Part shown: one piece after another, positions 1 through 32,321 of the stretch | Layout: the number at the start of each line of letters is the position of its first letter | Numbering within the stretch: the stretch's first letter is position 1 | From: Pseudovirgaria hyperparasitica | Taxonomy: Eukaryota > Ascomycota > Dothideomycetes > Acrospermales > Acrospermaceae | Reading direction: 5' to 3' | Assembly (NCBI RefSeq): GCF_010093815.1 | Contig: NW_022985565.1 | Location: forward strand, 819,375-883,374 | Length of the DNA: 64,000 bases | Notes under the pieces: model-generated | Told to the model about the DNA's origin: nothing | The model's database searches: none | Seen by the model: the letters and a program-made list of their open reading frames with translations, nothing else | Made by a program: the position numbers and the translations under genes

Positions 1-1
1 C

Positions 2-757: not shown

Positions 758-758
<1 letters not shown>

Positions 759-5816: not shown

Positions 5817-7347
5817 TTACTTTTCCACCTTCTCCCATGACTGCACTGTGTCTTCGAGTCGCGGCTCCGTTGTCATGGCTTCTACTGGCATTCGTCGGAT
5901 GCCGAGCATGTACCCTACCACGCCGCTTGGTATCCAGTTACCAACAAAGTCGTATGCCACGCTGCCTCGACCAACTCGCCATATACGCTTAGGCTTGCTC
6001 GCCGTCAATGCATCAAATACTGCGTTGTGTAGGCCGCGTAGAGAGCTCCCCTTTGAGCCTTTGCCATTCTCGCAGAACAGTCCCGTCCGCTCTGCTGACG
6101 CGCCCTGTGCGACGTAGTTCTGAGCGTACAGAGTCTTCGAAGACGCAGGCCATGTCCGCACCTGATTGTGGCTCATTGCACGGAGCTGATTCTTGTTCCC
6201 TATGTGGCTGAAGTCGAACGTACCAAGCTTCATTAGACACACCGGAATGCCAAGCGTCCCAAGCTCTGCTCGTAAAGACGCAGTGAAGCCTTCTATAGCA
6301 CTGACAACTGTGCTCTCCACCGCATGAAATGCTGGCCTCAGTGAAGAGACGACTCCAGGTGCTAGCACCAATATCCGAGCCTTCGTCTCATACACAACAG
6401 GGAGGAATGCTTGTATTGTTGCGATCGTGTTCAACACTTTGGCGTTCAAAGCGTCCGACCAAAGCTCGGGGGACACTGTCTCCACGGGACCAGATGGATA
6501 GATGAGATCGGGAACCATGATGATACCTGCGAGGTGCAGGTTGTGTGGGGAAGCGCCTGCAAATGCTTGATGCGGACTCATCAAGATGTTGCGAAAGTGA
6601 TCGATCGCGTCCTGACTACTCAGAGGCTAGTAAGTTGTCAGCACGCGTTTTCAGCTCTGCTACTATCACAGATTCTCGGCCTGGAAGCACTTGAAGCGGT
6701 TCGTCTTTGCGAAAAGTGTCGCTCAACTGATGTCCTCCTGTGGACTTGTAAAACTTACATCTACTATGTCCAGGTTCAGCGGCTTGATGTCGACCCTGCC
6801 TTCACTTTGAACAATTTGCTCCTCTTCCGTAGAGTTTACCACAATGTAGACTATGAAGCCTCTCCTTTCAAGATCCAAACTTATCGACTTCGTGACTGGG
6901 GAGCCAGCGGGCCCAGCAATCGCAACAACTTCACGCCTTGCACCATTGCTAGCTCTTCTTGCCCTCCGCTTCTTGTTGTGCCCGAATCGTTGTCGGTATA
7001 TCAGAAACGCGCCTGTACCCAAGAACGCGATGATGGCTGATGTGAGCGCGCGATTCTTATCGGTCCACTCTTGGAGTCTTGCGATATAGCCTGTCGATGC
7101 GTTCTTCAGAATTCGAGGCGGAGGCGAAGGCGGAGATCGGGCAGTGCCAGGAAGCCATCCGGTCCCTGAGAGCTTTTCTCGTATGCTCGCAGCTACATAT
7201 TCAAAGTGTCGGTCTGTAGCATCGGCCAAGTCTTCGGCGTACGTGTGTATGTCTCGCGATATGCCGCCGAGCTATACAAGATTAGCAGTCTTCAAGTGCA
7301 TTCAGAGTCCATACTATCTGAAGGAAATGCTGGTCGTCGCTAGTCAT
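5817..7347 (-). CDS. DUF1776 / short-chain-dehydrogenase-like membrane-anchored protein
   Basis: Three exons on the minus strand: 7347-7315, 7271-6759 and 6626-5817, giving 451 residues. Intron 1 (7314-7272, 43 nt) has branch-like GCTAATC; intron 2 (6758-6627) has donor GTAAGT and GCTGAC before the acceptor. All junctions keep frame (FLQI-LGGISRD, LDIVD-PLSSQDAI). A hydrophobic segment lies at about residues 86-104. A Rossmann-like start follows (EVVAIAGPAGSPVTKSISLD), then the central part (SPHQAF, MVPDLIYPSGPVETVSP, IQAFLPVV, ILVLAPGVVSS). It matches the fungal DUF1776 family (S. cerevisiae YNL181W type), an SDR-related group with divergent cofactor and catalytic motifs, so enzymatic activity is uncertain. 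The ATG at 7347 gives MTSDDQHFLQI. Confidence 0.82.
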
Positions 7348-9395
7348 GGTCACGAAGTCTAGGCTGTGACTAGATTACGTACATATGTCCGAGACAAGAT
7401 GTGGAAATGGATTCAACGTGTCAGAGGTCAAATCAGACGATCGAAGTGAAAGTTGTGATGATGCGAACTACGTACGAGCGGGGATAAGAAGCTTATCGCC
7501 ACGTGCAGCGGCCTCCGAAAGCCGCCTGAAAAGCAATCGCCAACGCAAGTTTGATTTCACCACCATCAGAACATCCGTTTGACCTCGTGCTCGCTATGTA
7601 TCCTGTCGTTCATAACAGCACTGGGATCAAGACCAGTTCGGAATCATCATCTCTGGTGACACAGTCAATACCATGGATGCATGGACATCCGCCAAGCCAG
7701 GCAGACGTTCGTCGTCAACATTGTGCATACTGCTGCGTACGGACTCATTGATGAGATGGACTACAGGCGAGAACGTGATCGATGCTTACCTTACATAAAG
7801 CATCTAGAACCAAGAAACTGTGTATTCCTGTCGGAAGGTGCAGATCCTCTGAAACTATATAGCAACATAGTAAAAGTGTGATTTCATGTCATTGGGCGTT
7901 GAGCTACGGTATGTCAGAGACAAACTGGGTTTGTTTAGACTTGCTTGATTTAGAGATAATACCTTTGATTCGGCTCGGTCCAACCGAATTTCAGGAAGTA
8001 ACTAACGGACGATATATTTAGGGCGGAGTTGAAAGAAAGGATCTACTCTCTCTCATACATACGCTTCTAACAGCTCATTTCAGAGAGTGTAGCTCTGCAG
8101 TTGACGCAATTCACCCTCCAGCAAGGCACCCACCGCATCCATATGCTCAATTTGCTGTCGACTAAGTTGTCCCGAATGTGTAAGGGAAGACTGACAACAC
8201 TCGGGCGGAAGACGGTACCTAGTCAACTCAGTTCACATCACACCCGACCTGCATGAGCTCCCGCCAATACGGTCGTGGAAGTTCTAAAGTAGTAACCGGA
8301 GTTTGGTGTAGGTAGGCAATCGTCGTCTATCACAGACAACGATCTTGTTCGGCCCGTCAGTGCCGCTGATGGACTTCATCGCAACATGATACCATAAGCC
8401 AGTGTCTAGCATCTACAGTCCGGAAATCCACATTCGTGATGAGCTTGCACGCGCAAACGTAGGGGTACAAAAGAGGCTGCTACGTTGCCGGTATTCTTGC
8501 GTGCCCTAATGAGCGTGAAGAGCATTGCGAACTAGATCCCATGGTGCTTTATGGATATATATGCCTAGCTTGGAATGAAAATTACCATCATAGTGGACTC
8601 GTCCCGATCCTCATACAGGTACTGTAGGTGGCAGATCTGCCGAGCCGAGGCTCGTCCATCTGGGCGCAGGGAGGCGCAAAGCCATGAAAAGCAAGAATGC
8701 AGGTGCGTCTGCCCCTCAACAAACTGCCTGTTGTGCCCCTTGTTCCTGCCCCTTTTATTGGAATCTTGAGGTGGAATGTGGAAGCTGCTACTGTAGTGCC
8801 AGAAAAGTTCTCAGGATGGAAAGTCCCACCAGAAACAGAAACCGTCACCCACCGGGATCGACACAGCCACGTTTCAGACTTTTCAATTCTGACAGTCCCA
8901 CTAGTACTAAGTTGGATTAGTGGCTATCACTCCAATGATGTCACTGTCACTTGTCACTCGCCGCCATTAATTACTACTTACTAATCGTTGGATGGCCATG
9001 AATGGCTTCTTCACTATTCTGGCCATCTCTTCATGGCTATGCTCTGGAAATACTACAAGATACAGTATACAATGTTCCAACTGAGCTATCGGCTTACCTC
9101 TTAGGCCTCAGCTCCACGTCCGACTGGTTTCAGGAAATGATTATAGGGGGGCGCTTCGTACCCACAGGTTCGCCACGATGTCACTGTCGCCCTCGGCACG
9201 GTCATCGACGGCGCCAATTTTATTTTGCTGCCATGTATGAGTAGGTATTATTAGGCGTTAGATGACCGCACTCTTTTACTATTTTCTCTTTCTCCCTCTT
9301 GCTTTCTCTATGTTTTCGATCCCCATACAAGCCTTCATGCCGCTCTTCTCTGTTTGTCTGCTTTGACGCTTTCGCTCTCTCTCACAACGAAAACA
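7348..9395. other. Intergenic, about 2 kb, no supported gene
   Basis: Divergent upstream space between the DUF1776 gene and the membrane-protein gene. Composition is normal and there is no RIP-like AT enrichment. Several open frames of 60-95 codons exist on both strands but lack motifs, overlap each other and have no convincing start or splice context. A pyrimidine-rich stretch lies at ~9275-9390, just before the downstream ATG, as in many fungal promoters. Confidence 0.6.
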
Positions 9396-11359
9396 ATGGA
9401 CACCGACTCCAAATATTACCTCTCGACTCGTCCCAGTGAGGCCTCGTTACGCCCAAGTGACGCCTCGATGCGTACGATTAAGAGTATGGACCAATTGATT
9501 GAGGGCGACCCTCTGAACAACAACCGACACGCGGATGGCCAGAACTCTCGTGGTCCCCAGCGCCAGCCATGGCAACCCGGTATTTGGCATCGACTTCCAT
9601 GGGTCCCTTTCACTTCCCTCATCGGAAGCACGCTCTGTACGTGACCACTCAGCAACTGATTCATCCCTGTCCTCTCTCGGTATGAGACTTACGAGCTTCA
9701 AAGGCGCGATTGGAGGTATCATCGTACTGATCACCAGCGACCGAAAAAGCACTTCAGCATGGGACGAAAAGCTTCATTTGCAACCCGCTGTGTATCTAGC
9801 TATTCTTTCGGTCCTTGCCAATATTTTTCTCGTGTTCGCGCTCGCCAAAGGGTTGGTCATAACTTTTTGGACTGCCGCACTGGACGGCTGCACTGTAGGT
9901 CAACACTTGTTCAGCCACTGAACTTAGCCCGTATTAACGTTGACAGCTCGCTGATCTTCATTACATCTGGGACTCTGGCACTTCATTCTTTGGTGCTATC
10001 CAAGGTGTGTCCCACAAGAAGGCCGTTATAGTTTCGATCGCTTGCATCTTCACCGTTATTTCCGTTGGTCGAGGACCACTCAATCAACGAGCGACCAATA
10101 TTTAGTCGAATCATGTGGTTTATTCTAATGGCACCACTGTTGTCAATATCGCACAGGAGCTCCCTAATACCTTTGGGGGGTATCCAGTCCTATCTAGGGC
10201 TGCCGTTCGACAGACCGCACGACTGACGCCAAATCTAACCCAGGTTTTGCAGGAGTATTCGCAGCGGCAAACAATAGAGCTCACCCATTCTGGTTGCGGC
10301 CAACAATGCGATGCCACCATCAAGGGCTTTGGCTTTCGAGTCAACTGCAGCGAGCAGGTTGAGTATGAAGATGTCGTAAAAGTTGGTACCTACCAGACCC
10401 TGTTCGCGTCCTGGGCTTCTCTTAATTGGACTTCTAACGACTTTTACAACCCGGTGCCTTCGTTCATCACACTGAACGCAAGGTATCGAGTCGATGATGT
10501 CCCTGTCGAAACGAATGCGACTACCCATGCTGCCAAAGTGTCCTTCAAGCGTCACTCCTGCGACCTTCACGGGGGCGTCACCGCGTATCAGCTCAATCTG
10601 ACTGCCCACTCCGTCAACTTCAAATACCCCGACTGGCGTTCTGACGCCTTCGAAAGAGAAGTCGAGCTTCTAGGACCGACCAATCAGCCAACTGGTGGGC
10701 CCAACGTTATCGGCGGCTTCCAGAAGGCCATAGACACCCTGTTCAACTCGACAGCTATCTACTTCCTTGGTGGTGCTGTTTCGTCGACTGACTTGACAGG
10801 AAATCTGGCCAACCAGTATGTCAAGGACAATGGTAGGCCCTATGACCCACTGTTCACTTTTAACGATCCAATGGAAGAAATGTTGATTGCTGTCCGCGAA
10901 CTTTCATTGCGTGCGTCCATAGCAGCTGCAAACCAAGCCTGGTCCCATGCGCAAGGAAACAACACGGCGATGACTTTGGCCCAAAACACTTACCAACAGA
11001 ACGTGACATACCATGGGTATTACTTCGACGACATATACGTTACGGACCGGGTATACTTGGCCGTCTCTGCACTAGTCTCTCTTTTAGGTATAGTTGCTGT
11101 TGCCGCGACATTCTGGGGGTACTGGAATCTTGGCCGCAATGTATCGCTGTCGCCCTTGGAGATCGCGAATGCGTTTGACGCTGATGTTCTAAGCCACCTT
11201 GGCGACAATGCTGAAAGTGCGACATTGGCGAAGTATGTCAAAGGTGACTACGTTCGCTATGGCGAAAAGCATATGCCACTACCCGAAGGACGCATGACTA
11301 GATTGCGGTTTGTACGAGGCCCGGAGGCAAACCGTCCGTATAGGAACATGTACTACTAG
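9396..11359 (+). pseudogene. Fungal multi-pass membrane protein with glycosylated domain, in-frame TAG
   Basis: Exons 9396-9636, 9704-9894 and 9947-11359; introns of 67 nt (donor GTACGT) and 52 nt (donor GTAGGT, acceptor GACAG). Together they form a 614-codon frame broken by one TAG at 10103-10105 (codon 197). Hydrophobic segments are predicted near residues 70-93, 105-135, 165-190 and near the C-terminus (VYLAVSALVSLLGIVAVAAT). The long middle part has many N-x-S/T sites and paired Cys, suggesting an extracellular glycosylated domain. The layout resembles an ascomycete family often labelled 'formylmethionine deformylase-like', for which no such activity is established. The TAG follows the conserved GPLNQRATN block, and no donor GT lies between that block and the TAG, so an intron cannot easily remove it. 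It could be a nonsense mutation (CAG to TAG) or a sequencing error; otherwise the gene looks intact. Confidence 0.65.
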
Positions 11360-11418
11360 CGATAACGTCGAATTACGGTGTACCCTTGGATCCTCTTTCT
11401 TTTTCGAACCCGATCTCA

Positions 11419-13130
11419 TTATCGCAGTATATGCTTCCTCACTGTCAGCATGCTTCGAGGCCACCAGCTTTCCTTCGAACAATGGTTTGAGCATTGAAGG
11501 TCCACGATGGACAAGAACCTCTCAAGCTCCCATTCCCCGAGGTTTCCAATCCACCAGACACCATCCAGAAGAGTCACCAATACAAGCCAGTAGGCGAAGA
11601 TTTCTGCAGCCAGTTGTTCGACTGGACACCATCGCCCATAATGCGATCCAGCAGGTTGTATGTTGAGGTGTAAGGAGTTCACTTCTTTTGGCACCGTTGT
11701 TACGTGCTGGACAAAGGTAATGAAATTAGTCGGTACTAGATTCAGAAAGGACATGATGGTTCTACGAAGAAGCTTCGATGGCTCAGCAGATGTTACTCGT
11801 GCCAGGTATGTCCTCAGCCATGGCGAGCCATTGGTTGGAAGCGTATTGTTGCGAAAGATGTGAGAATTCGGCGACATGTGTCCGGGTGGAGAATGATCTT
11901 CACTTGAAAACATTGCCGACGCAACCTTCTGCAAGACCTCCATAGCCGTTACGCAATCATCGATTCGAAGACGATTGGAAGGTGATGACTCGTATGTGTG
12001 GTCGCCATCTAATAGCATGTCAAGCTTTTGCGATTCCACACGAGTTCGGAGTTTCTCGAATGCACATGAATACGTGCCGGCGATGATTGGCAGGACAAGT
12101 CGACTTGTTTCCTTTGTTGGTCCGCTTTCTGGACACAAAACCACACATTCATGCCCAGCTGTTCGTTCGTATCCAGGCTTATCCTCGCTACAATCCCACG
12201 ATGGATACCCATCATGCACATACTCCGGACTCGATAGCACCCCTACAAAAGCCAAATGCGCAGTCCTCACCAACATCATCCAGTCCCCCTGACCGGGCTG
12301 TACCCGAGAATCTGGCTCTGTTTTCCCTTCTATCGTCATCATCGCCAGCCGTATCCGCAGACTTTGATCGGCTAAACCATACATAACCATGAGCGCCGCA
12401 TTTGCCAGCACAATATCATAACACCCTGGCTCGAGAGCTGCTACTTGCATCTCGCGCAGTGCGATCTGGTAGTGCTGGCCTGCAAGTTCTAGAGTGTGAA
12501 CAATCCTGTTCATGATAGCTTGTGTGACTGATTTGCCTTGGGCGAGCTGAAAGCATCTTGAAACACCGGAAAATGCAAGGACAGAGGCCATGAGCGGGCG
12601 GCTACGCAGTGCAAGGTTGGGCACGCCGACTTGCAGTACATACAGTTCATCTTGATCGAATGCGACAAGGCGTCCGGTTCTGGTTATGTAATCTCCGAAA
12701 AGCACAAGTTCAGTCGCTCCAAAGAAGCCAAAACTCTCTGCAAGCGGTGTAGGTGTGTCGATTCGCCCAAATGATTGCGGTTTTGTAGCATATTCTTTCA
12801 ATATCGATAGTTCGCGGGTACTGGATCGTGTTGATATGCCATCAAGTACTTGACGTTTTAGTCTCACAAGACTCTTCTGGGAGCTTTTGGCTTGAGGATA
12901 GCAACATGTATATCCGTATGCTACACAGCGGGAACATGATGGTTTTATTTCGTCACACTGTATTCATTTTTAGCCATCTGACCAGATACCGCTTACGACA
13001 ATGCAATGGATCGACTGTTGTTTCGATGGCTTACCTTTTTTCTCTGCTGCTTACATCGCAAACATCCATTCCTGGATTTTCCATGAGGTCTGCGAAACTT
13101 GAACTCAGATGTTATCGACATCATTGACAT
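11419..13130 (-). CDS. Zn2Cys6 transcription factor
   Basis: Two exons on the minus strand: 13130-13035 and 12957-11419, giving 544 residues. The 77-nt intron (13034-12958; donor GTAAGC, acceptor ATACAG) splits the zinc cluster. Spliced, it reads CLRCKQQRKKC-DEIKPSCSRC-VAYGYTC, a perfect C-x2-C-x6-C-x6-C-x2-C-x6-C pattern at about residues 23-50. The remainder resembles the fungal-specific transcription factor domain 2 found behind 'GCLRCK...KKCDE' zinc clusters. It is a nuclear DNA-binding regulator, probably recognising CGG-type sites. Several in-frame ATGs start the protein (13130 is the first). It is divergent from the cupin gene, with 1.45 kb between them, and ends 59 bp from the membrane-protein gene. 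Its position makes it a candidate local regulator; targets are unknown. Confidence 0.88.
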
Positions 13131-14582
13131 GGCGCGAGCAGTAATTAGCGTAAGGAATGAGATGTCTGTCTATGGTCGGACTTTGATTCTAGAAGGGAGG
13201 GCTCATTAGGATTGATATTATACGCGTGATGGATCTATCCGAGAACCGGTGGCTCAGTCTGGTACCGCGCGATCCGGCAAACAGTCGAGCCCCGCTCTGG
13301 GCACTCCCGTGTGCTCAGCCATATTGCGGCTGAATGCATCGGCTCGGACAGGGTCTCACCGTAAATCTCCTGGCTTATAACAGAATCTCCTTCCGGACTT
13401 GCTTACAATTCTGATTATCTGCATCTTTGCCCTTCCTTGCTTGCATCAATCACACTGGCGGTCGGAATTCTCTGACATACTTTGTACCGCTCCTCCAAGT
13501 TGGGTGTTCCGCAAAATCCAACTCATCATGCACGAGGATGCTTAGCAATAAGATCGAGGACTTTTTACACACGAGGGGTGTCTTTGGATGGAGAGTGGAT
13601 ACAGCTCCGAACAGAGTAGAATTCGAGGTCTTGGTGACTTTCGAATCCTAGACCAGATATATCATATTAGTAAATGTGCCCAGAAACAAAGGATTTGAGC
13701 TTCCGATCTTGTGCCAGCAGAAATGATCCCGAAGGTAGATAAAATAAAGGGTATGAGGTGGTTGATGACTTGATTATTGTCAGTATCTTGGACTTCCAGT
13801 CCAGAGCAAGACAGTGATGACGGACAACACACAATACAAATGGAATGGCGGCCCGGATACTGAGCATGGGAGGTCTTTTAATCAATGAGGCTTCCTTCCA
13901 TCGGAAGTTGACATGCGGATCTTCGTTTCTTTCGGATCAGTACGCCTGTAGATGTTGATGGGACATGGTTTCTTGGCTTGTGTGAAAATGACTCCCCGCA
14001 TTGAAGGACACCAGACAATTACAATTACATGTACTAAATAGCAAAGTGTGAAGCTAGAGAGCTCCAAAAGCTATGCCGTGTATGCAGGACAACCAACAGA
14101 CACCTGTGGGGTGGAATGGATGGAGTGGAAATATTGAACGGGCCACTCCGGGACCAACTCAGCCGCGGTCCAACCACAATAATAATTTGGCATGCTAAGT
14201 TGTAAGCATTTCAGCCCCGTTGGCTTGGGCTGACAGGGAACATTCGTCGATTTGTCACGTAGCCACTAAGCTGCTAAGCCTACCCCAAGTGCCAGCAAAA
14301 TAAAAGTCAGGTGCGTTTGCGTATGCTGACCTCGTGCGTATAACGCCTATACGCTTCATAAGTGAGCAAGAGCACTGCTAGCCTTACGAGACGGAAAGAC
14401 GATCATTCCTTGTAGAGCGAAATGCCTTGGAACAATTTGCAGTCGTAAACGCGGCAGTGTATATATTCGAGATATAAAGATGTTGAGATGGCAGGCAAAA
14501 AAAGTGTCAACTCACTTACTCGCAACATCAGACTCCAAATCAACACTATCAATTTGCAATCAAGATTATCTTCAGAAACAAA
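13131..14582. promoter_or_regulatory. Divergent intergenic region between transcription factor and cupin genes
   Basis: A 1.45-kb region shared by two outward-facing genes. It contains several CGG/CCG triplets, e.g. near 13246-13275 (CCGGTGG, GATCCGG) and 14140-14170 (TCCGGG, CCGCGG), the kind of motif Zn2Cys6 proteins bind, although such triplets are common. A TATA-like GTATATATTC lies near 14458, about 125 bp before the cupin ATG. No coding region is supported; one 74-codon frame at 13427 has no recognisable features. Confidence 0.35.
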
Positions 14583-15412
14583 ATGATTTCCAAGATTCCT
14601 CCTCATGTCTTCCTTGCCATCATGGCTTTGTCTCCTGCCATACACGCTGCACCTCGTCCAGTCACTAGAGAATCTCCTTCTGGTCTTAGTTTGACGCAGC
14701 AACTTACTCTGGCAGACACGTACGTCACAAATGATCGATGGATATCACAGCCTTGACAAATTCATGTAGTGCTGCCGACCGATATGCCCTCCTGCCGAAT
14801 GACTCTGACTTCGTATACGACTTCAATACTGCCAGCCCGCAGCTGCCCAATCGCAAGAATTTCCCAGCGCTCGTTGGCACCGGAGTCAGCATGGCTACGG
14901 CATCTTTTCCAGGTATGTTCTCAATCGCCCTCACCCGAACTCATGATCACGACGGGAACAACTAACGTCATTTATGAGTAGCCTGCGTTGTAGCCCCAGT
15001 CCATATCCACCCCCGAGCCACTGAGCTGTTCCTCGTCACCTCCGGTACAATTCAGACCACCCTGATCCCCGAATTCGGCGCTGGTCCTCTACCGTCAACA
15101 TCAAATACTGCGAACCCAAATACCCGCATCATATCCAACACTTTGACCGCAGGCCAGATGACTGTTTTCCCTCAGGGTGGCTTCCACCTGCAGATCAATC
15201 CAACGTGTGAGAATGCGACTGCGGCGGCGGCATTCTCGAGCGATGACGAAGGGGTCATCGCAATCGTACCTAGTTTAGTTTCTCTGAATGAAGGGTTACT
15301 ACAGGATGTGTTTGGTCAGAGTCTCGGTGCGGAGGAGATCGGTCGGGTCAGAGAGGCGGCGAAGCAGGGGCTGGCGCTCATGGAGGAGTGTAAGAAGAGC
15401 TGTGGTCTTTGA
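14583..15412 (+). CDS. Secreted germin/spherulin-like cupin
   Basis: Three exons: 14583-14719, 14770-14912 and 14982-15412, giving 236 residues. Introns are 50 nt (donor GTACGT, acceptor ATGTAG) and 69 nt (donor GTATGT, branch ACTAAC at 14961, acceptor GAGTAG). The N-terminus (MISKIPPHVFLAIMALSPAI...A) is a likely signal peptide, cut near residue 22. Cupin motif 1 is APVHIHPRATELFLVTSG (His-x-His ... Glu) and motif 2 is PQGGFHLQIN (P-x-G-x2-H-x3-N), so all metal ligands are present. FPALVGTGVSM is also typical. Germin and spherulin-1A-like cupins are secreted metal proteins with varied activity; the substrate here cannot be named. A C-terminal helix with two Cys (EECKKSCGL) may form a disulfide. 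It lies 1.0 kb before the four-domain enzyme gene, same strand. Confidence 0.87.
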
Positions 15413-16431
15413 GAACGATGTGTCACTTCTCTGGCACACGAGACGTATCGTCAGCGTGTACTAGAGAATACATCGAGAAAGGCGAGTTTTGACTTCAGTT
15501 TCATGCGTACCAACTAGATACATTCGTTACTTCAGCTTAGGAAGTTTCAATAGAAAAAAGTGCACAATATCCCAGAATACTCAGGATAACACGTAGTAGT
15601 TTCTGTTAATCAAATGTTAGTAAGTTGTTGTAAGGTCAAAACCAAGCCAAGGAATATTTCAGTCTATCGTCGCTAAGATTCATTGAGATAGCGTGCTATA
15701 AATGGCACTGATGGAATAAAGGGGTGAACGATCAACTCCGTGTTTGACTAGTTCCGATTTACTGAGTACAAAAGTGAGTGGATAGAATCGGTGATCAATA
15801 AACGAATGGATAATTATCTACGTTTGCTATTATTGCATAATACCTGCCGTTTAAGGTACCTTTAAGGGGCATTTCAGCTTGATGTTTAACCAGGAGCCAC
15901 CATTGACAAACAGGGGTATTGCAATGGAATCATTCAAAGATCATGCCAAAATCCACTGGAAGCACAAGAGCGGATGACTCTATCCTGATAGCTCTAGCTA
16001 ATTATAGACGGTTACACGACGTCTTAATGTGCACTTCCGTAGGACTTTTACTGCTCTACAATTCCCGGAGCAGGTGAGATGCAAAGAAGATACGACTAGT
16101 GATACAGGTGACTCATTCCGGACATGGTTTGATTGTATATGTGACGCCAAGATATTGAATTTATTGCTATGCGTCTCAAACCTTGCTTGTTTCTGCATGT
16201 ATATTAGGAGCCGTGCGCAAATATCATGGGACCCCTGAGTCCTCTTCACAATCGATTTGCTAGCCACAATCTGCAATCAAGAGAGAACATTGCCATGCGA
16301 GGTAGCTCGCAGACCGTGGTATATAATCTTGTCTTCCATTTTTCTGCACTGGAACCGCCATCGAACTTACACAGACTATAACCATCGCCGAGCACCCCTA
16401 ACTTTCACTGTGAACATTCGTCAGTAACAAC
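15413..16431. other. Intergenic between cupin and four-domain enzyme genes
   Basis: About 1 kb of somewhat AT-rich sequence with no supported gene. A TATA-like GTATATAATC lies near 16319-16328, about 105 bp before the ATG of the downstream gene, followed by a C/A-rich leader. Confidence 0.5.
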
Positions 16432-19400
16432 ATGACCACACTCGAAGATGTCAAGAAACATCTTCGTCTAGAGGCCGATGCGTACATGCCATTCAATCGA
16501 CGACCTCTGACAGACGAAGAATACGGCAATGGTTTTGCCATCATACGCAACGGATCGGGTGCGTTGATCTACGAAAACTTCATTGTTCCTCAACTCTCAC
16601 GTGTTACATCTTATCTTCTTAAATTTCAGACAAGCCTTACTTGCCTTGAAGTCGGTCCAGGACCAAGAAGTGTTCTTGGTGCACTACCTCTTGATGTTCG
16701 TCGAAGCATCACCAAGTTCGATGTCTTCGAGCCGAATGTCTTATTCGCATTGGAGTTACAAGAGTGGCTTGAACCTACCACAGGAATTGATCCTCCGTTT
16801 CCATCATTATGCGACAAGTCTACTATTCATGTAGAAAGATTCGGGATAGACTCGCGCCCATCCATAGCGAACTCCACACCCCAGTACAACCTGATATTGT
16901 TCTGTCAAAGTCTATACGGACTATCTCCGAAGCACGAGGTCGTTCGTCAAGCTCTTAGTATGGCCACCAAGGCTGGGATCGTGGTTGTGGTTCATCGAGG
17001 CACTTCGCTGGATCTCGGTAGCCTTGTGTGCCACGACAACGTGTTCGATACAACGGGGCAAGTTCAGGTTGAAGAAAGTGATGAAGCTCTGGATCGCTTC
17101 TCTGCATTCGTGGCAGGTTTCAAGCCCAGTGAAGTGGATACAGATAAGAGTATCCGGCCCAAGTGGCGCGCGGTATGCCGTGAGTACGGAAAGCATGAGA
17201 TGAGCAAGCCCACTCGTATATCCTTCTCTTGCCCTACCATGATGGTCACGTTCAATCATGGCGCGACTGCGCTGACGGAACTTATAGACAAAGTTCCCAT
17301 AGCCGAGCCTGGAAGGAGAATCAAGAATTCCGAAGCACGACTGAATCATCCCGCTGCGATATTAAGACCAAAGGATCATGTTCAAGTTCAAGAGTGCGTA
17401 AGATGGGCACTTAAAAACAAAGTAGGCCTTAGTGTCATGAGCGGAAGCCACAGTGGGCACTGCCAATGGTCCAATGTGGTAGCAATCGATATGGAGGCAT
17501 TCGACCAGATTCATATCATCAAGAATCAAAGGTCAGACATAGAGTCTCTGGTGGTTGCTGGCACCGGCTGCAAGGGCGGAGATATTGTCAAACGAGCAAT
17601 GGCAGAACGCCTGAGTATTCCCTTGGGATCTCGTCCGAGTGTCGGTGCAGGACTATGGCTACAAGGTGGCATCGGTCATCTTGGTAGGCAGTATGGCCTT
17701 ACGTGTGACTCCATCATTGGAGTTGTCCTTGTTGGTGTCGAGTCTGGTCAAATATTTTACATTGGGAATGTGCCAGCTCAATACAGACCAGCGGGTGCCA
17801 CCCGTCCAGAATTCGAACTTGACTTGCTCTGGGCAATCAAGGGAGCTGGAACCAATTTTGGCATTGTCACCCACGTCATATTCAAAGCTGTTCCAGCTCT
17901 CGTTCACTCTGTTCAGCACTACGAGCTACGACTTTCCACATCAGACGAGGTCTGTTTGGAACTTGGAAATTTTCATCGGCTGCTCGCTAGCAAGGCTCCT
18001 CGTGAAGAGTCTGTCGATGCCTACCTATATACTTACAAAGGTCAGCAGATACTAGCGTGGTCGGTCATTAAAACCTCCACCACGAAGCTCCGCTTTGCAG
18101 GCTTAGTACCCATGAAGGAGAGCACAACGGCCCACCACTCTAGTATTGTTGATGATAATGGCCTTTTTGATGAAGAATACCACATCTCAAGCATGCCGGG
18201 TGACCATGGGAGTGGCAAGACGTCGTCTTTCAAACGATGTGTCTTTCTCAAGAGCATAGAAACAGCAGAAGTTCGTGAGAACCTTTCCAGAGCTACATCT
18301 TCTGCCCCTTCGGAGTCTTGCTATGTCCATCTACTACATGGTGGAGGAGCCATGGCTGATGTCTTAGAGAGTTCAACTGCTTTCGGCTGCCGCGACTGGG
18401 AATACGCCTGCGTGATTACCGGCGTCTGGAAGCGAGACAAGGATGGCACACCTATTTCGAGACGTACCGTGGGATGGGTGTATGACACCGTGAACAGTTT
18501 CCTACCGCTATGCAGTGGTATATATGGTGCGGACCTAGGGCCAGATCCACGGGACCTCCCTCTCGCAGCCAAAGCATTCGGGTCCAACCGACCTCGCCTT
18601 GCTCGACTGAAGGACACACTTGATCCTTATAATGTATTAGCATATGCATGCCCCCTACCACCAATCACTCAAGGACAGAAACTCATTGTTCTTGTGAGCG
18701 GAGATACGTGCGCTGGCAAGGATTATTGTGCTAAGATATGGGCCGACTCTATCAATGCATGCATGCCCAAAGCTAACTACGCCCAAGTGATCAGTATCAG
18801 TAACCAAGCAAAGAAAGACTATGCGGCCGCTACACCTGGATGTGATTTAGACCAGCTCCTCTATGATCGCGCCTACAAAGAGGAGCACCGTGCGGCCCTA
18901 ACATTGTTCTGGCAGCACCAGATGGCGCTGAATCCACAGCTTCCTGAGGAGCACTTCCTCGATACAGTGGCCGGGGCTGCAGCTGCAGATGTCTTATTCA
19001 TCACTGGCATCCGGGACGATGCTCCTGTGGCAACTTTATCCTATCTAGTCCCAGCATGCCGAGTCGTCGAAGTTCGCGTTACATCCAGTAGAAATGTACG
19101 GGAGGTCCGTTCTAATGGCAGAGACAAGCTCGAATCAATGGCTCTCAAGCATCGTCCTTGTCTCAATTTCGAGAACAATGCAAATGGGCCCGAACTAGCC
19201 AAAGGATTTGCGACACGTTATCTATTCCCATACCTCCACGAAGATCTCCGGAGCCTGGCTGAGTTGGTAAACAAAGTACGCAACTTTCCTACACCCGGCA
19301 CAGACTTTTGTCACATTCTTGGAATTGTACAACGACCCGGAGGTCTGAGCCTCTGCACTTCACTCCTACAGGCCCACTTCCATGGCTCTTGGTCAGATAT

Positions 19401-19824
19401 CGACGCCATCGTATCTTGTGAAGCTGGTGGGTTCATCTTTGCATCTGCCTTGGCAATTCAAGTCAAGAAGCCTCTCATCTTGATCCGTCGAGCTGGAAAG
19501 CTTCCGCGTCCAACGGTTTCAGTACTAAAGCCTCAATCATACATATCAATTGTAGGTCAGACTGCCAAAGAACCTGAGAGGCTTGAGATGGATCGTGATG
19601 CTCTGCCAAGAGGGGCCTCCGTAGCTATTGTGGATGACGTACTATCCACTGGAAGGACAATGTGTGCAGTGTTAGAGCTGTTGGAGCAGACTGGGGTCAG
19701 CGCCGAGAAGATTAGGATTCTTACGGTGGCAGAATTTCCAGTTCATCGTGGAAGACAGCTAATACAAAGAGGCGGATATGGGAGGAGCTTAGTCCAAAGT
19801 CTCCTAGTCTTTGGTAATAAATAG
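16432..19824 (+). CDS. Four-domain enzyme: methyltransferase-like, FAD/BBE, PMVK-like P-loop, APRT-like
   Basis: A single uninterrupted frame of 1130 residues. Residues ~30-250 look like a SAM methyltransferase (motif I LEVGPGPRSVLG at 72-83, acidic FDVFEPN at 96-102). Residues ~303-740 are an FAD_binding_4/BBE-type oxidoreductase: SGSHSGH at 337-343 with the likely FAD-linking His340, LWAIKGAGTNFGIVT at 466-480 and a C-terminal LKDTLDPYNVL. Residues ~750-940 resemble animal-type phosphomevalonate kinase: P-loop SGDTCAGKD at 756-764, then LDQLLYDRAYKEEHR and FITGIRDD. Residues ~945-1130 resemble adenine phosphoribosyltransferase: CEAGGFIFA and the PRPP site VAIVDDVLSTGRTM at 1064-1077. In the FAD domain the usual second linking Cys is absent (GSRPSVGAG), so attachment may be through His alone. 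The APRT EARGF motif reads EAGGF. Probably cytosolic (no signal peptide). Substrate unknown. It is the last gene before the RIP block. Confidence 0.85.
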   Translation: MTTLEDVKKHLRLEADAYMPFNRRPLTDEEYGNGFAIIRNGSGALIYENFIVPQLSRVTSYLLKFQTSLTCLEVGPGPRSVLGALPLDVRRSITKFDVFEPNVLFALELQEWLEPTTGIDPPFPSLCDKSTIHVERFGIDSRPSIANSTPQYNLILFCQSLYGLSPKHEVVRQALSMATKAGIVVVVHRGTSLDLGSLVCHDNVFDTTGQVQVEESDEALDRFSAFVAGFKPSEVDTDKSIRPKWRAVCREYGKHEMSKPTRISFSCPTMMVTFNHGATALTELIDKVPIAEPGRRIKNSEARLNHPAAILRPKDHVQVQECVRWALKNKVGLSVMSGSHSGHCQWSNVVAIDMEAFDQIHIIKNQRSDIESLVVAGTGCKGGDIVKRAMAERLSIPLGSRPSVGAGLWLQGGIGHLGRQYGLTCDSIIGVVLVGVESGQIFYIGNVPAQYRPAGATRPEFELDLLWAIKGAGTNFGIVTHVIFKAVPALVHSVQHYELRLSTSDEVCLELGNFHRLLASKAPREESVDAYLYTYKGQQILAWSVIKTSTTKLRFAGLVPMKESTTAHHSSIVDDNGLFDEEYHISSMPGDHGSGKTSSFKRCVFLKSIETAEVRENLSRATSSAPSESCYVHLLHGGGAMADVLESSTAFGCRDWEYACVITGVWKRDKDGTPISRRTVGWVYDTVNSFLPLCSGIYGADLGPDPRDLPLAAKAFGSNRPRLARLKDTLDPYNVLAYACPLPPITQGQKLIVLVSGDTCAGKDYCAKIWADSINACMPKANYAQVISISNQAKKDYAAATPGCDLDQLLYDRAYKEEHRAALTLFWQHQMALNPQLPEEHFLDTVAGAAAADVLFITGIRDDAPVATLSYLVPACRVVEVRVTSSRNVREVRSNGRDKLESMALKHRPCLNFENNANGPELAKGFATRYLFPYLHEDLRSLAELVNKVRNFPTPGTDFCHILGIVQRPGGLSLCTSLLQAHFHGSWSDIDAIVSCEAGGFIFASALAIQVKKPLILIRRAGKLPRPTVSVLKPQSYISIVGQTAKEPERLEMDRDALPRGASVAIVDDVLSTGRTMCAVLELLEQTGVSAEKIRILTVAEFPVHRGRQLIQRGGYGRSLVQSLLVFGNK

Positions 19825-19849
19825 CTGTAGTTCGAAGCAGACTTCCTAT

Positions 19850-20526
19850 CAAACAATTAGTTCAATTCTATGCCTATATTTGAAGTTAAACTAAAGTACT
19901 TTAGTTTACTCTACTATATATTTAAACTAAACTATTAGTTATAGTAGTAGAATTATAGTTAACTAAGTTAAACTAAAGTTTAGTAGGTAGTTGAAGAATC
20001 TCGTAAATATAGTTAAAATATTATATATTTAAGGCTATATAGTCGATTTTTATACGTCTTAGTATATACCTAGGTAGATTTAAGTACTAAATTATCTAAA
20101 TTTAATAAGAAACTAACTAGTATACTTTTACGTAAACTACTAGTTATAGATAAGGCTATAACGCTACTAACTCTTTAAATCTTATAGATAGTCGATTAAT
20201 AGTAGACTTATCTTACTTCGTTATAGTATAATTATATCTTCTACCTTACTAAATATATATTTATTATTATAGCTTAAAGCTAGTATAGAGAGTATATTAA
20301 TTATAAGTTTATAAAGGTAAGAAAACTTATTCTTTCTATCTAGCTACTACTAGATTAGACTATCTATAATATTAGACTTACTATTAAGGCGATAATAGAT
20401 ACTTAGCTTATCCTTCTCTTATCTTTTAGGGCTCTTTATCTTTATTTTATCTAAGTATTACTCTACTTATAATAGCTAAGATAGAGATTATATAACTAGA
20501 AGAGATAGAGATAGTAGTAAGAAGAG
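19850..20526. repeat. Left arm of an unidentified older repeat, RIP-degraded
   Basis: AT-rich sequence starts within about 30 bp of the preceding stop codon. The first 130 bp contain several TTAAACTAAAG-type motifs on both strands, also found in the right arm (36740-36910). The arm is cut by the LINE, and continuity with 33946 onward is shown by the 17-bp target duplication. The outer boundary is approximate; a DNA transposon with subterminal repeats is possible but no family was recognised. Confidence 0.5.
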
Positions 20527-20543
20527 TAATAGAGATTAGTATA
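20527..20543 (+). repeat. 17-bp target site duplication, left copy
   Basis: TAATAGAGATTAGTATA occurs here and at 33929-33945, flanking the LINE with its nested gypsy element. Confidence 0.9.
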
Positions 20544-20789
20544 ATAATAATAATAATAATATTATATAACTAGGTAGAGTAGTTTACTCTATAGGCGTAT
20601 ACCTTCTCTAGTCTAAGCTATTATATAAGAAGAAACCTTTATATAAGGAAAAACTCCCTTTTCTCTATAATTATATCTTGTGAAACCTTCGTATTATCTT
20701 AAGTATATAGCCGTTAGGAATATCTATAGACCTATAACCTATAGTACTATTATTTTACCCTTAGGTAGCACGTATAGAGTACGGGGGTT

Positions 20790-20816
20790 ATTAGTTAAGA
20801 GTTACCCTTAACTAAT
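20790..20816. repeat. Palindromic hairpin near LINE 3' end
   Basis: ATTAGTTAAGAG, a 3-nt centre and CCCTTAACTAAT form 12-bp arms (one G-T type mismatch). A near-identical palindrome lies near the LINE's other end at 33639-33665. Confidence 0.8.
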
Positions 20817-20899
20817 AATCGGGGTTCTCCCGGGGTTCTTCCGGCGTATACCGGGGTCTATCTAGTATATACCTAGTTACTTCTAGTATATATATCTAG

Positions 20900-23800
20900 G
20901 TCTATTAGTATTAGGGAAGAGGGAGATATATAAGTATCTACTAGGCGATCTCCTTAGGGTACTTATTAAGCTACTATATAATATTAGAGGTCCTTATTAT
21001 ATAGATAAGCGATTATCTCTATATATAGAGGTCCGGGTATATCGCGAGATAGTACTATATTATATCTCTCCGGCCGTATACTTTATACTATAGAGACGCG
21101 TCTAGAACGCCCCTCTAGTATAGATAGTATAGAAGTTCTATAGCTTCTATTTAGGCTTAGAGGAGGATACATACTTAGGCTTTTATAAGCCCCTTATATA
21201 TCTATCTACTTAGCTCCTTCTATAGTCCCTAAATCTATTCTAGATATCTATTCTATTAGGATACCTAATAGGTCTAGAGGACTTTCTTCTATTTATCCTA
21301 GGTCTATAACCGTATAGCCTATATAAGCTCTTAAGGGTTCTACCGGTCTAGGGAGGCGTCTGGGTTATCCCCGATCTCTTATATAATTTAGTTTAAGTCT
21401 ATCTCTATTAGGCTCTTATACTATAGTCGATTCTAGTCTATATATAGTAGTACTTAATAGTAGATACTAACTTATATATATAGCACGGTAAAGGTATATT
21501 TAGCGTATCCTACGCGTTCCTATACTTATTATTTAGTAAAGTATATTACCCTCTATATCTAGTAGAAGTTATATATACTTATTACGTTTATCTCGCGCCG
21601 TAGTAGTACTATATTAGTAGCCTTATATACGCTAGAAATAAGATAGAGTATATAGTTCTATATAGACTTAAGCTTTATTCGCCTAGCCTATATAAGGGCT
21701 ATATACTAGTACTCGTATCTATACGTGAAGGCGGGTTATACTATAGAGATATATAGTTAGCGTACCTTATCCTAGGCGGTTTCCTATATAGAGGCCGTAA
21801 TCTAGTATATAGCGGCTTCTACCTTAAGGGCCCTAGATACTATATATATAATCTATAGGCCCTATTTAAGTTTATTATTAATTATAACGCTAAGTACGTA
21901 TATACTCTATATCGGCGGTTTAGTAAAAGCATCTATTCTAGGATATTACTCTCCTTCCTTAGTAGCCTATTTCCTATAGTAGTTAATAAAGTATATAAGT
22001 TAGTATTTCTTAGAGGCAAACTTTACTCTATAGCGCTTTATCTACTAGATATATCTCTTATAGTCTTATTCGAGGTGTTTATATATTAAACTAGTATTAT
22101 TATTAATAGCTAGGAGGTATATATCGTCGGCGTATCCTACTACCTCTATATATTATATTCTCTATAGAAGGTCTACGGTAAAGAAGAGAAAGAGAATTAG
22201 GGAGATAGTACTTCCTTATAGAATACTATATATTATCTTCTTATATTTACTTTAATATCTAGAGATATATATCTAGGTAATTCTTTTAGTAAGAAAGGAC
22301 TATATAAACCTTATAATCTATTCGGGTATATATCTCTTCTATAGATTATAGATAAGTCTTATATAGTTTATCTTATTAAATGCGCCGGCTATATTAAGGG
22401 AGAGTAATGTTACTACGCGTCTCTATTTCTATATAGTCTAGATAACTTTAAGGATATATTAGATAGTAGTAATTAGGGAGCTCCTAGTTTTCACCTTCTA
22501 ATTTACTAGAAGAAGGTTATATTCTTATACTATGGTACTTATCTTCTTCGTAATCGTGGCCTTAAGTATTTTACTAAGATAGAAGAGAAGGGTAATTAGT
22601 CTCTATCCTTTTAGGGAGTTAGGGTTCTTCCCTAGTTTTAGAAGTATAATAGTATAGACAGCCCGGAAGCTTTAGAGGTGGTATCTATTCTTAGTATATA
22701 TCTAGAAGATAAGGCTAATAAGTAGTAGGGTCACCTATATAGTATATTTAAGGTATCTATTTAGTATTCTATCTAGTCTAGACACTTTATCGTTCGAGAG
22801 TACTCTAATAGTATTAAGAATCTTCTCTTCCGTAATCTCTACGGGGATATTAACCGCGTCTAGATATATATTATTATTAATATCTAATAGATCTACTAGC
22901 TCTAGGGGGGGAAATATAACTTCTTAGAGAATCTCTATCTTTTCGGGGCTCGTAGTATATATTCTCCCCTAGTATATTAGGGGAGGTATTAGTAGTAGTA
23001 GCGTCTACACGTCCGCGCTCTTAGCCTACTTTACTATATACTATAGCCCTATAGTCTATTATATATATTTATTAGTAATTATATACTAGTATTTATATTA
23101 TTTATTATAGAGGGTCTTATCTTAAGATTGGATTATCTCTTTCTATTCCTCCTATGCCTTAGTTATCTAGATATAGTATACGCGTGTATATAGTCTCCGG
23201 GCTACCCTTCTACTTTTATATATTTAAGGTATACCCCTTACGTCTAGAGGCTTATACGTTTAGTATAGTACGTATTTATCTCTTAAGTTTTAGAAGGCTT
23301 AAAGAAGAACTTACACGGCTCTATCTATAGCTAGGCTATTAGAGACGTTAACTATAGAGGGGTCTAGAATCGCCGATCCTAGGTTCTTCCTATACTTCTC
23401 CTAGTTAGTATCTTTCTATAGCTATCTCCCCTATTATTCGTTAGGTATAGATATATCTATCGCGGTCTCTATATATTTATAATTAGAGTCTATTTACGTC
23501 TTACTAGGGCGGTAGTATTATACTCTATAGCTTATATATTCTATAGCGAAGGTAAGGTTAAGTATAGATCCCTCCTTATCTTCCTTATATTTCCTCTATA
23601 TAATTTATCTAACCGGCGTAAGAAGGTATAGAAGGTTATAGTACCTTATATATAGCTCTCTTACTCTAAGCTCTTCCCTAATAACTATTAGGCCTCCCTA
23701 CTATCTATAGTAGAGGTTAAAGTTATCTAGAAGGATATATTATTCTAGTTCCGTAATACTCTCTAGTATAGTATCTAGTATAAGTAATTCTCTCTAGTTA

Positions 23801-24278
23801 TAGATATTATAGATATAGAGGGGCCCTATATCTATCTAGAGGTATAGTATTATCTAGAGATTATCTTATTCTATATAGAACTATTCTAAGAGCGGGATAG
23901 ATTTATATATATAGAAGAGAACTCTCCTATCTAGGCCCGGGGGGTAGATAGTATAGTATTCTAGGTGTGTCGTTAGTTTATTAGTTTAGTAGTATTTATA
24001 AGGTTCCTAAATAGCTATTATTATAGCGTCTATCTCTTCTAGAAGCATAGCCTAGTTTTCTTATTTATAGTATATATTCGCCTATATAATAATAAGTATA
24101 TCTTAACTCCTTATTAGGTGCTAGGAAATACTTAAGCCTATATACTAGTAGCGTTAAGGCGCGACTATCTCTACGCGGTAGCTACCTTAAGAATACCCTA
24201 GGGTTATTCTATCTTCCTTTATATAGTATACTATTACACGTTAGCCTCTTCTTCTTATAGATTAGTTAGTATAGTTAT
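20900..24278 (-). pseudogene. LINE ORF2 remnant (reverse transcriptase)
   Basis: The minus strand encodes an RT core: an AGAF...N...RLIYNL stretch (conserved DxxGAFDxxxxxRLxxNL block) and GYADD at 22137-22123. Many in-frame stops are present, mostly TAG/TAA explicable by C-to-T change. Endonuclease and RNase H parts were not resolved by eye. Limits are approximate. Confidence 0.6.
24274..24278 (+). repeat. 5-bp target duplication of gypsy A1 (left)
   Basis: GTTAT directly precedes the left LTR and recurs at 32322-32326 directly after the right LTR. Confidence 0.9.
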
Positions 24279-24516
24279 TGTAAAGAGTAAAGACGTGGGA
24301 TAGTAGTCTAACAGTTCATAGAGAGATATAGGAATGTATTTATAGAGTAATCTTACTCTCATACGAGGTTGATTCCTAACGAGTAGGAATCGGTTTATAC
24401 GGTCCACTTATATAGTAACCTCGCTTAACTTAGCTAACTTAACCCAGCTCTGGCCACTACGTGGCTGTATAGATTAGAATAGTCTATATAGGTCCGTTAT
24501 AGTTCCCGTCCTAATA
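24279..24516 (-). repeat. A1 LTR, left (3' LTR)
   Basis: 238 bp, plus strand TGTAAAGAG...CGTCCTAATA. By eye it differs from 32084-32321 at 16 sites, all C/T or G/A, with no insertion or deletion. The terminal CA has become TA. Confidence 0.93.
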
Positions 24517-24995
24517 ATATCCTTCTTCTTTTTATACTTCGCCCCGAAGTACTTAAGTATATATAATCCTAAGTCTCTATAATCTATCGTGTATCTATAT
24601 ATCCGTAACTAAGTTCCTATAACGTTATAACTATTCTTAATATAGGTGAACTCGAGATTCTAGTTTACTTTTATTAGTTTATATACGCGCTTATCCCTTG
24701 CTTCGTGGCTACTACCTAGGACACGTAATCGCTACTTTAGTCGAGCATATATTTAGCTTCGCTTACCTTTAATTTTATTCTCTAGTATATCTACCTCGCT
24801 CTTAAGGTAAGTCGTTAATTTATATACTATCTTCCCTAGTTTAGGTTTAGAAGGGTCTATAGTGGTCCATTCTTATTAGAACCGGTCCTATGTAACCTAT
24901 TCGCGTTATTACGGTTACTAATTTAGCTTCGTCAATCGCCGTTAAGGGTGGACGAATATTCCTTTCTTAGATCTCTAGCTAACGTGTATATATAG

Positions 24996-26390
24996 ATGTC
25001 TAATACTAGTCCTATCTCTAAGCCTACCTCCTCCTCTCGTAAGACTCGCTCTAAAGGTATCGCCTCCTCCCCGGCCACGCCGGCTAAGAAGCCCACCTAT
25101 CGCGGTAGTATAAAGGCGCGCTCTAAGTCGGAGAAGAGAGTAGCTAGGGCTACTACTACTACTACCTCTACTACTAATATGGCCACTAGTCGCTCTAATC
25201 TAGGTAATCCTAGTACTAAACTTATGGATAAAGTGGTCGTAGGTTCTCCTCTCGCTCTAAAGCGCACGCCGCCTACTCTACCTCCTCTAGAGGATAAAGA
25301 AGATCTTATTATAGATGATAATCGCGAGCCCTCGCGCTCACCCACGCCGCCGCCTCGCCGCTTTTCCTTCCGGTCTAACATGGACCGATTTAGTCGCTCT
25401 AGGTCCTTTTAGGACCTTAATATTCGCTCTAAACCCCAGCCTACTAATAATAAGGCCTAGGTCGCCGAGGATACTAAACGTGGTCACGGTTTATACTATA
25501 GGAAAACGGCGAACTACGGTTCGATATACTATAAGTGTATTAAGGGCTATACGGCCGGCTCTAAATATCTCTTTCGCTCTAACTCTAGCATTAGCTACTA
25601 CTCTACTAACCGCGACGGGCCTATACGCCCTATCTTTACTCTACCTACCCGCTACCGCCGCTATACCGTGACTAGTAAGACTTATCTATAGGTAAGTATA
25701 ATGGGCTATCTTAATCTAGTATGATCTAAAGTGGTCCGCGCTAATACATTCTTAGGTTCCTATGCGTATATAAGATATATATAACGACCTTCGCGTCCGC
25801 GAGACCCTCGGGGGTCCTTATAGCCGCCTATCTACTATATAGAGGGAGTTTAGGGAGCGCTATAAGCTCTTCCTAGAGGTTATTAAAGTATAAGTTACGA
25901 GCACGTTAATTATTTTTAACACCCGTTGATTTTTCTAGCCGCCGCGAGATCCCTAGCGCCTAGGCTACCTATTCTAGGGAGTCTATCCTAGCTATAGAGG
26001 CCGTAGAGAGGATTCGCTCTATCCCCCCCTATCCGTCTCGCGCTACTAACGGATCTCGTAAGAGGTCTACTATTTCTCCCTCTAAGTCGCCTTATAAGAG
26101 GGTATATATTCCCTTCTAGATTATTCTAGATCGTGTTAGCTAACTTTAGACCTAGTCGCTACGCTCTAGCGCTTAAGGCTCTTCTCTCTAGGCTCTAACG
26201 GATCGGGTTATTACTCTAGAGGCTAAGGTCGTCGTTCTCCGCCGCTATGTCGTGTAGTTAGAGAGGACTATACTAGAGATTAGGACGGATAATAAGATAG
26301 AGAAGTAGCTCTATGGTTCTGGCTCTATATGTTAGCTCTATGCCTAGCTCTATATATTCTAGATCTACTATAGGTGGTGCGCGCCGGCTC
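24996..26390 (+). pseudogene. Extra antisense-orientation frame in gypsy A1, unknown product
   Basis: Opposite to A1 gag-pol. A 138-codon frame starts at ATG 24996 (basic, Ser/Thr/Pro/Lys-rich; SRKTRSKGIASSPATPAKK), then continues in phase past TAG codons at 25410 and ~25458 to about 25689, reading GHGLYYRKTANYGSIYYKC. Tyr codons here may be former Cys, suggesting a lost Cys-pair motif. A GTAAGT follows. Further right, plus-strand segments read ERIRSIPPYPSRATNGSRKR (~26005-26060) and LEAKVVVLRRYVV..LERTI (~26218-26290), the latter coiled-coil-like. It keeps more G+C than its surroundings. Function unknown; it lies between pol and the 3' LTR. Exact frame joins are uncertain. Confidence 0.5.
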
Positions 26391-27269
26391 TGTTTACCTA
26401 GCTTTTATCTATTTTAGTCCTTTTTGGACCGTTTAGATACCCGTCGGCCAGTTTCTAGTAATTTAATTCTTAACTTAATGATATTATATGTGCGCTCGCT
26501 TAGCTTATGACTATCGGTTTCTACATTCTAATTTTCCTTGAGTTACCTAAGTGTGGGCACCGTATATAAATTGGTTTATCTCTATAAATTCCATTAGAGT
26601 ACCCGAACTAGTGGCCTAGTAGTTATTAGTTTAGATACTCTAACCTTTTATATTTCGTGTTAAGAGTTTAATTCTATGGTGGGGTACCTTTTTTTAGGTT
26701 CTTAGTCCCATGTTTTTCTCGTGTATAATGGTCCATATTAGTCTATTCTAGACTCTTCTATGTTATTCTATTGTAGTGTGTCGCGTCGCGTTCCTAAAAT
26801 GGTTATTTACGCTTTCTTCGCGTCTAGTAACCGTGCGACGCTTGAATTATGGGGCTACCATATAGAGTTTTCCTAGTACGCGTCTAGATTTCCTGGTTTA
26901 GCACTTCGTTCTCTACGGTATCCTTCTTCTTTTTATAACGACCGCGACGTCGCTATGCTTATATTAATAATACGCTATTCTATATCTTTTACTTATACGC
27001 AGCCATTATAGAACTTAAGATATATACCGCTAGTTCCTAGGTGTCCTCGTCCTTAGTATAGTCCTTCTAACGGATTCTATATTTCTAAACACCGTCTTTA
27101 TCAATCCTATGTTTAATAATATAGTCCACTTCGAACACGTCTAGTCCATCTTAGGGTATAATAGAGTATAACTATACGTTCGTACGGCCATACACGTTAG
27201 GTCGAAATCTTTCGAGTAGTAAGACGTGGAACACGTTATAGATTCTTATATCGCTTCCTAAGTTAAGCT

Positions 27270-31900: not shown

Positions 31901-32083
31901 TACTAGTTATTAGTGCGATAGCCTATAGGGTGTACTTATCGGTGGAGGTAGTCATAGGGAGACTATTCTCTTCGTTTAGATTTAGAGAGAGTCTCTCGTA
32001 TAAGGTAGTGCCACGGGTATTATAGCGCGTAGTAGGAGCTATCTCTATAAGCTACTATCGTGCTATATAGAGAGGAATTAAAA

Positions 32084-32321
32084 TATAAAGAGTGAAGACG
32101 TGGGATAGTAGTCTAATAGTTTATAGAGAGATATAGGAATGTATTTATAGAGTAATCTTACTCTTATACGAGGTTGATTCCTAACGAGTAGGAATCGGTT
32201 TGTACGGTCCACTTATATAGTGACCTCGCTTAACTCAGCTAACTTAACCTAGCTCTGGCCACTACGTGGCTACATGGATTAGAATGGTCCATATAGGTCC
32301 GTTATGGTTCCCGTCCTAACA
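32084..32321 (-). repeat. A1 LTR, right (5' LTR)
   Basis: 238 bp, plus strand TATAAAGAGTGAAGACG...CCTAACA; here the terminal TG has become TA while CA is kept. The sense sequence just inside the element (TTTTAATTCCTCTC) matches the equivalent place in copy A2, which fixes the inner boundary. Confidence 0.93.

Follow-up and report, generated by a model that had tools for sequence, protein, structure and literature searches.

We analysed a 64,000-nucleotide stretch of the Pseudovirgaria hyperparasitica genome (hereafter the window), which is the final 64 kb of contig C17 in a 35.0 Mb assembly of 59 contigs, and focused on one gene on its forward strand. The interval 16432–19824 was confirmed as one open frame, predicted to yield a single polypeptide, with four modules: a methyltransferase-like domain, a BBE-type flavin adenine dinucleotide (FAD) oxidase, a kinase resembling phosphomevalonate kinase (PMVK), and a type I phosphoribosyltransferase (PRT) related to adenine phosphoribosyltransferase (APRT). 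The gene and its parts are as follows.

16432..19824, forward strand: four-domain gene, 1130 amino acids in a single frame
16432..17208, forward strand: N-terminal methyltransferase-like domain, residues 1–259 (EVGPG from residue 73; Methyltransf_23 at E 5.6e-5 with the segment, below the gathering score)
17209..18672, forward strand: FAD-linked (VAO/BBE-type) oxidase domain, residues 260–747 (from Pfam and PDB alignment)
18673..19239, forward strand: animal-type PMVK-like P-loop kinase domain, residues 748–936 (GDTCAGKD at 757–764, YKEEHR at 815–820; PF04275)
19240..19824, forward strand: APRT-like type I PRT domain, residues 937–1130, stop codon included (loop for phosphoribosyl pyrophosphate, PRPP, kept; adenine-contacting residues differ)

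The frame contains zero internal stops, the remaining five frames of the same interval carry 42–62 stops apiece, and base shuffling of positions 9001–20000, repeated 200 times, yielded stop-free runs of 234 codons at most. The preceding in-frame stop lies six codons upstream of Met1, with no ATG among those six. Log-odds of codon use, with four neighbouring frames (1981 codons) as the training set, were 0.08, 0.05, 0.07 and -0.05 for the methyltransferase, FAD, kinase and PRT segments, respectively; the PRT segment was the weakest and slightly negative, and the gene's own frame ranked top in all four. An earlier reading of this DNA (the original prediction) had claimed one 1130-codon frame with these four modules in this order, and both claims were borne out: the frame is free of internal stops and favoured by codon statistics throughout, the FAD, kinase and PRT modules exceed their Pfam cut-offs, and only one module, the methyltransferase-like one, rather than two or more, falls short. 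The motifs were also found where they had been placed, namely EVGPG from residue 73, His340, SGDTCAGKD at 756–764, and the PRPP loop with its two aspartates at 1068–1069.

Such a gene could, in principle, have been fused from unrelated genes and be in decay, or be a product of faulty assembly. It lies at the edge of an AT-rich subtelomeric block bearing signs like those of repeat-induced point mutation (RIP), and several strongly conserved residues of its PRT domain are altered, as would suit decay. The TpA/ApT ratio reaches 1.59–1.86 at about 20–36 kb and from 44 kb on; at 16001–20000, however, it is 0.78, and the dinucleotide indices there resemble those of positions 1–16000. Together with 3.4 kb of stop-free sequence and codon statistics that favour the gene's frame in each segment, this makes decay or mis-assembly very unlikely.

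The gene had also been described as intronless. The frame is indeed uninterrupted, but the absence of introns is unproven, since one well-formed candidate, matched by an equally good one in 49 of 500 codon shuffles, occurs within it.

17180..17287, forward strand: possible 108-base in-frame intron (GTGAGT...CTGAC...TATAG) in the linker between the methyltransferase-like and FAD domains, residues 250–285; unproven

The candidate has the donor GTGAGT, a branch-like CTGAC and the acceptor TATAG, and its length is divisible by three. It was the sole candidate under a strict donor pattern that was fixed only after it had been spotted, and the shuffle count refers to at least one candidate under that pattern. 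With a loose donor pattern the gene has four candidates, a count reached by 33 of the 500 shuffles. Splicing out 17180–17287 would keep the frame, shorten the linker and leave the protein unsplit.

The N-terminal segment is likely a class I methyltransferase module, as suggested by a sub-threshold family match and motif I. Methyltransf_23 was matched at E 7.5e-4 (19.7 bits) with the whole protein and at 23.4 bits with the isolated segment, the cut-off being 27 bits, and the EVGPG pentapeptide corresponds to methyltransferase motif I.

The assignment of the second module is based on FAD_binding_4 at residues 307–441 (E 9e-14 with the whole protein; 53.6 bits with the segment against a cut-off of 26.4) and a marginal BBE tail at residues 713–738 (E 0.0031; 19.7 bits with the segment against 20.6). 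Its best PDB relatives among the matches listed (60 of 98) are 6-hydroxy-D-nicotine oxidase and EncM. His340, within SGSHS (337–341), aligns with the histidine of 6-hydroxy-D-nicotine oxidase (SGGHN) and of EncM (GGGHS), which we take to be the flavin-linking residue; Arg401 is aligned to a cysteine of PDB chain 6yjo, presumably the second flavin link in that protein. Since the histidine is kept and arginine stands where 6yjo has cysteine, a singly linked flavin is expected from the alignment. The module shares FAD_binding_4 and a histidine at the linking position with BBE/VAO-type oxidases (6-hydroxy-D-nicotine oxidase, EncM, sorD), the BBE tail being marginal, and differs from them in Arg401 and in being fused to the methyltransferase-like and kinase–PRT parts.

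Only about 16 residues separate the BBE match, which ends at 738, from the kinase match, which begins at 755. P-mevalo_kinase (PF04275) covers residues 755–870 with E 9.3e-17 and 61.4 bits for the whole protein and 65.8 bits for the segment, well over the cut-off of 33.8; the equivalog TIGR01223 was not reached (20.9 against 188.15 bits). SGDTCAGKD forms the P-loop, and the GxxxxGKD and YKExxR motifs align to and are shared with animal-type PMVK (3ch4, 7xnd). The differences from that enzyme are a P-loop in which K/R/K is replaced by D/T/C, the fusion to a PRT, and an ERG8-type PMVK match elsewhere in the genome. The latter, on contig C2, is split over exons (239 and 65.3 bits), no piece alone reaching the cut-off of 376.95. 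Because the genome holds this ERG8-type match, likeness to PMVK does not imply mevalonate chemistry here. PF04275 itself exceeds its cut-off at one genome site only, this gene; its sole further match is weak (E 0.11).

In the C-terminal module, Pribosyltran was matched at residues 969–1101 (E 9.3e-17; 61.2 bits against a cut-off of 26.3), and the closest PDB matches of the segment are APRTs (E 9.8e-19). All the NCBIfam APRT equivalog cut-offs shown were missed: TIGR01090 gave 90.7 against 185.85 bits, and the best model, NF002636, 101.6 against 125. The PRPP loop reads VDDVLSTGRT, as compared with VDDxxATGGT in APRT: both aspartates, TG and the final threonine are kept, the alanine is replaced by serine and the second glycine by arginine. 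With APRTs (1ore, 4x45, 1g2p) the domain shares its type I PRT character by sequence, FPTPG near the N-terminus, RxxGKLP and the PRPP loop.

To locate the differences, we aligned the domain with the APRT fragment of the same genome (without intron-read residues) and all 22 bacterial loci retrieved, 23 other rows in total, human APRT numbering being counted on the 1ore alignment. The bacterial loci were picked by patterns from the stretch at about 948–963, so that some of the conservation in that stretch, including that of D28, follows from the selection itself; this does not touch the three base-side positions discussed below. Among 39 columns conserved at 90% or more, 26 are kept and 13 changed. 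The changes include D28 to H961, R67 to G999, E104 to I1040, Y105 to V1041, and TGGT to TGRT, while Phe26 of human APRT is kept as F959. At the positions of R67, E104 and Y105, 22 of the 23 other rows have R, E and Y, the exception (L051) reading out of frame. Four plus five extra residues, a further departure from APRT, flank the PRPP loop, and the placement of I1040 and V1041 is alignment-dependent, anchored by Y1037 and G1042. In a docking study, Glu104, Tyr105 and Arg67 of human APRT are among the residues interacting with adenine or kinetin (PMC7414151).

A domain with a kept PRPP loop and missing base-contacting residues might serve as a sensor rather than as a catalyst: the PRT fold would bind PRPP without transfer and gate the FAD and methyltransferase half, the C-terminal half being a regulator. 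PurR, the pur operon repressor, reportedly binds PRPP through a PRT fold in this manner, and PurR chains are among the PDB matches (E 7.9e-5 with the whole protein, 5.8e-6 with the PRT segment). However, the APRT matches are far stronger, and the adjoining P-loop kinase with its kept GxxxxGKD points to chemistry. We therefore regard a regulatory role as unlikely.

A role of the PRT domain in anti-phage defence was considered as well and dropped, the PADLOC matches being marginal only (16.8 and 14.4 bits).

The genome also contains a separate APRT match on contig C13, split by an intron into pieces of 150.4 and 28.6 bits, neither of which alone reaches the cut-off of 185.85. With separate APRT and ERG8-type matches in the genome, the four-domain gene is probably not a housekeeping copy, and its identity with a housekeeping PMVK or APRT was thought unlikely.

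The original prediction had suggested chemistry on adenine or a cytokinin, that is, purine or cytokinin salvage or modification by APRT-like transfer to adenine or prenylated adenine, accompanied by methylation and oxidation. The top PRT matches are indeed adenine phosphoribosyltransferases, Phe26 is preserved, and LOG and IPPT matches are present in the genome: contig C11 has one of each, C14 a further LOG match and C6 a further IPPT match. Contig C17, however, has neither. Glycine, isoleucine and valine at the R67, E104 and Y105 positions and the separate APRT match also speak against the idea, and no chain named cytokinin dehydrogenase was found among the 60 of 98 whole-protein PDB matches listed or in all 40 rows of the FAD alignment. 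Hence this suggestion was not supported, and we consider it very unlikely.

On C11, a LOG-family frame of 210 amino acids (L024) precedes an IPPT-family frame of 305 (L027) on the same strand, at a distance of about 0.9 kb. This pair is a possible cytokinin locus, and fungal IPT–LOG fusions have the opposite domain order. Given these LOG and IPPT matches, the cytokinin idea has a better home elsewhere in the genome.

The other part of the same suggestion, a phosphorylated nucleotide- or base-linked product, fared better: the PRPP loop, the Walker A lysine and the flavin-linking histidine are all present, so a phosphoribosylated product is a fair deduction, although adenine as its base is not supported. 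From these results, the following hypothesis may be put forward: the protein would be a four-module enzyme in which the kinase–PRT pair works on a non-adenine acceptor and the two N-terminal modules modify that same small molecule, as part of a specialised pathway. The PRT domain would bind PRPP via the kept loop and transfer phosphoribose to, or cleave it from, the acceptor; the PMVK-like domain would be an ATP-dependent kinase, phosphorylating either the acceptor or the product's phosphate; and the front half would perform S-adenosylmethionine-dependent methylation and oxidation by a histidine-linked flavin. We find this plausible, if somewhat short of probable. The analysis itself shows an open frame with its domain matches, conserved cofactor motifs and no adenine contacts; that every domain is active, that all act on one substrate, in what order they do so and that the role is a specialised one, we infer.

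The hypothesis is favoured by the retention of most conserved APRT columns (26 of 39) while the base-side residues differ, and by the subtelomeric site, with a Zn2Cys6-type frame and a cupin in the vicinity. Several observations weigh against it. The methyltransferase match remains under the curated cut-off (19.7 and 23.4 against 27 bits), and a phmmer search of PDB with that segment gave 0 sequences at E ≤ 10. The kinase segment matched only the PMVK chains 7xnd (E 0.079) and 3ch4 (E 1.4), both weakly, and its P-loop is devoid of the basic residues of animal PMVK. With no equivalents of R67, E104 and Y105, the PRT domain may have lost its activity instead of having gained a new target. Finally, the Pfam scan of ten other window frames, in which intron-broken genes were possibly missed, brought up no polyketide synthase, non-ribosomal peptide synthetase, terpene or transporter family; with no backbone biosynthetic family matched, a classical gene cluster is not evident.

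In a bolder form of the proposal, one protein would constitute a whole pathway to a phosphoribosylated natural product on a non-purine acceptor: an APRT domain with a new target would carry out the transfer from PRPP, a kinase related to PMVK would phosphorylate, and the other modules would contribute N- or O-methylation and oxidation by a covalent flavin. This appears doubtful at present; if true, however, the product would be a nucleotide-like fungal metabolite of a new type. Should the four modules share one molecule, a single gene would encode most of a small pathway and would point to an unknown class of phosphoribosylated fungal metabolites. The protein would also be an APRT fold that has a PRPP site and is devoid of the usual adenine contacts, and so a directly testable case of re-targeting.

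Partial precedents exist. The protein scheme of the cordycepin and pentostatin cluster depicts both a HisG-type PRT and a nucleoside kinase among its domains, a fungal combination of kinase and phosphoribosyltransferase domains as in the present gene (PMC11188397). Angustmycin AgmE, which carries a PRT domain and moves a phospho-sugar during nucleoside biosynthesis, likewise puts a PRT-domain enzyme to use in specialised nucleoside synthesis, as is proposed here for our protein (PMC8599513). AgmE differs in being a separate, bacterial protein that acts on adenine. As for the cordycepin and pentostatin cluster, both the nucleoside kinase and the HisG domains presumably belong to Cns3; its kinase and PRT families are different from those described here, and we take it to have neither a methyltransferase nor an FAD domain.

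The gene may also represent a widespread, uncharacterised fungal multidomain family, which concerns distribution alone and is compatible with the four-module hypothesis. An intact frame beside RIP-like DNA fits purifying selection, whereas no description of the family was found in the literature searched; we consider the question evenly balanced. That search, which covered titles and the starts of abstracts, most subscription journals lying outside its coverage, likewise retrieved no description of the four-domain architecture. Fungal pairs of PMVK-like and PRT modules with a CEAGGF-like motif probably occur in public databases, and because of such fusions the combination with methyltransferase and FAD modules is not claimed to be categorically new.

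No relative of the kinase–PRT half was found in 28 pattern-matching stretches of genome contigs, nor of the whole protein in 5 such stretches of viral contigs, each with one query sequence that reaches close relatives only. PF04275 had no match in 3 genomes and exceeded its cut-off in 0 of 396 bacterial genomes of one phylum (one weak match, 21.4 bits), but these searches detected it in 0 of 14 control genomes and say little. Among plasmids, the kinase segment had no match at E ≤ 0.01, and the whole protein matched 203 records, the 30 listed covering parts of residues 241–787, the FAD part. The methyltransferase segment gave 1 weak match in 296 genomes searched, and a search of the P. hyperparasitica genome with the whole protein gave ten other matches, none spanning the methyltransferase or the kinase segment.

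Of the ten other window frames, six matched Pfam families at E ≤ 0.01, namely Sel1, DUF1776 (twice), Zn2Cys6, cupin and a protein-kinase-like family, the Zn2Cys6 and protein-kinase-like matches being below cut-off. Two of these frames lie close to the four-domain gene and are listed here as neighbours only.

11419..12963, reverse strand: Zn2Cys6-type transcription factor frame (PF00172, 19.5 bits against 21; zinc domain partly beyond the frame)
14978..15412, forward strand: cupin protein frame (PF00190, 55.1 bits against 22)

At 5817–7271 on the reverse strand, the two DUF1776 matches fall in adjacent frames and cover consecutive parts of the profile; presumably, this is one gene split by an intron. 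A DUF1776 neighbour, genes with introns and the RIP-like composition together suggest the genome of a filamentous ascomycete. The kinase-like frame (37678–38721) lies in an island of more nearly normal composition at about 38–44 kb, between the AT-rich blocks 20001–36000 and 44001–63900. A TTAGGG telomere array occupies 63908–64000; the window thus ends at the chromosome end, about 44 kb from the four-domain gene.

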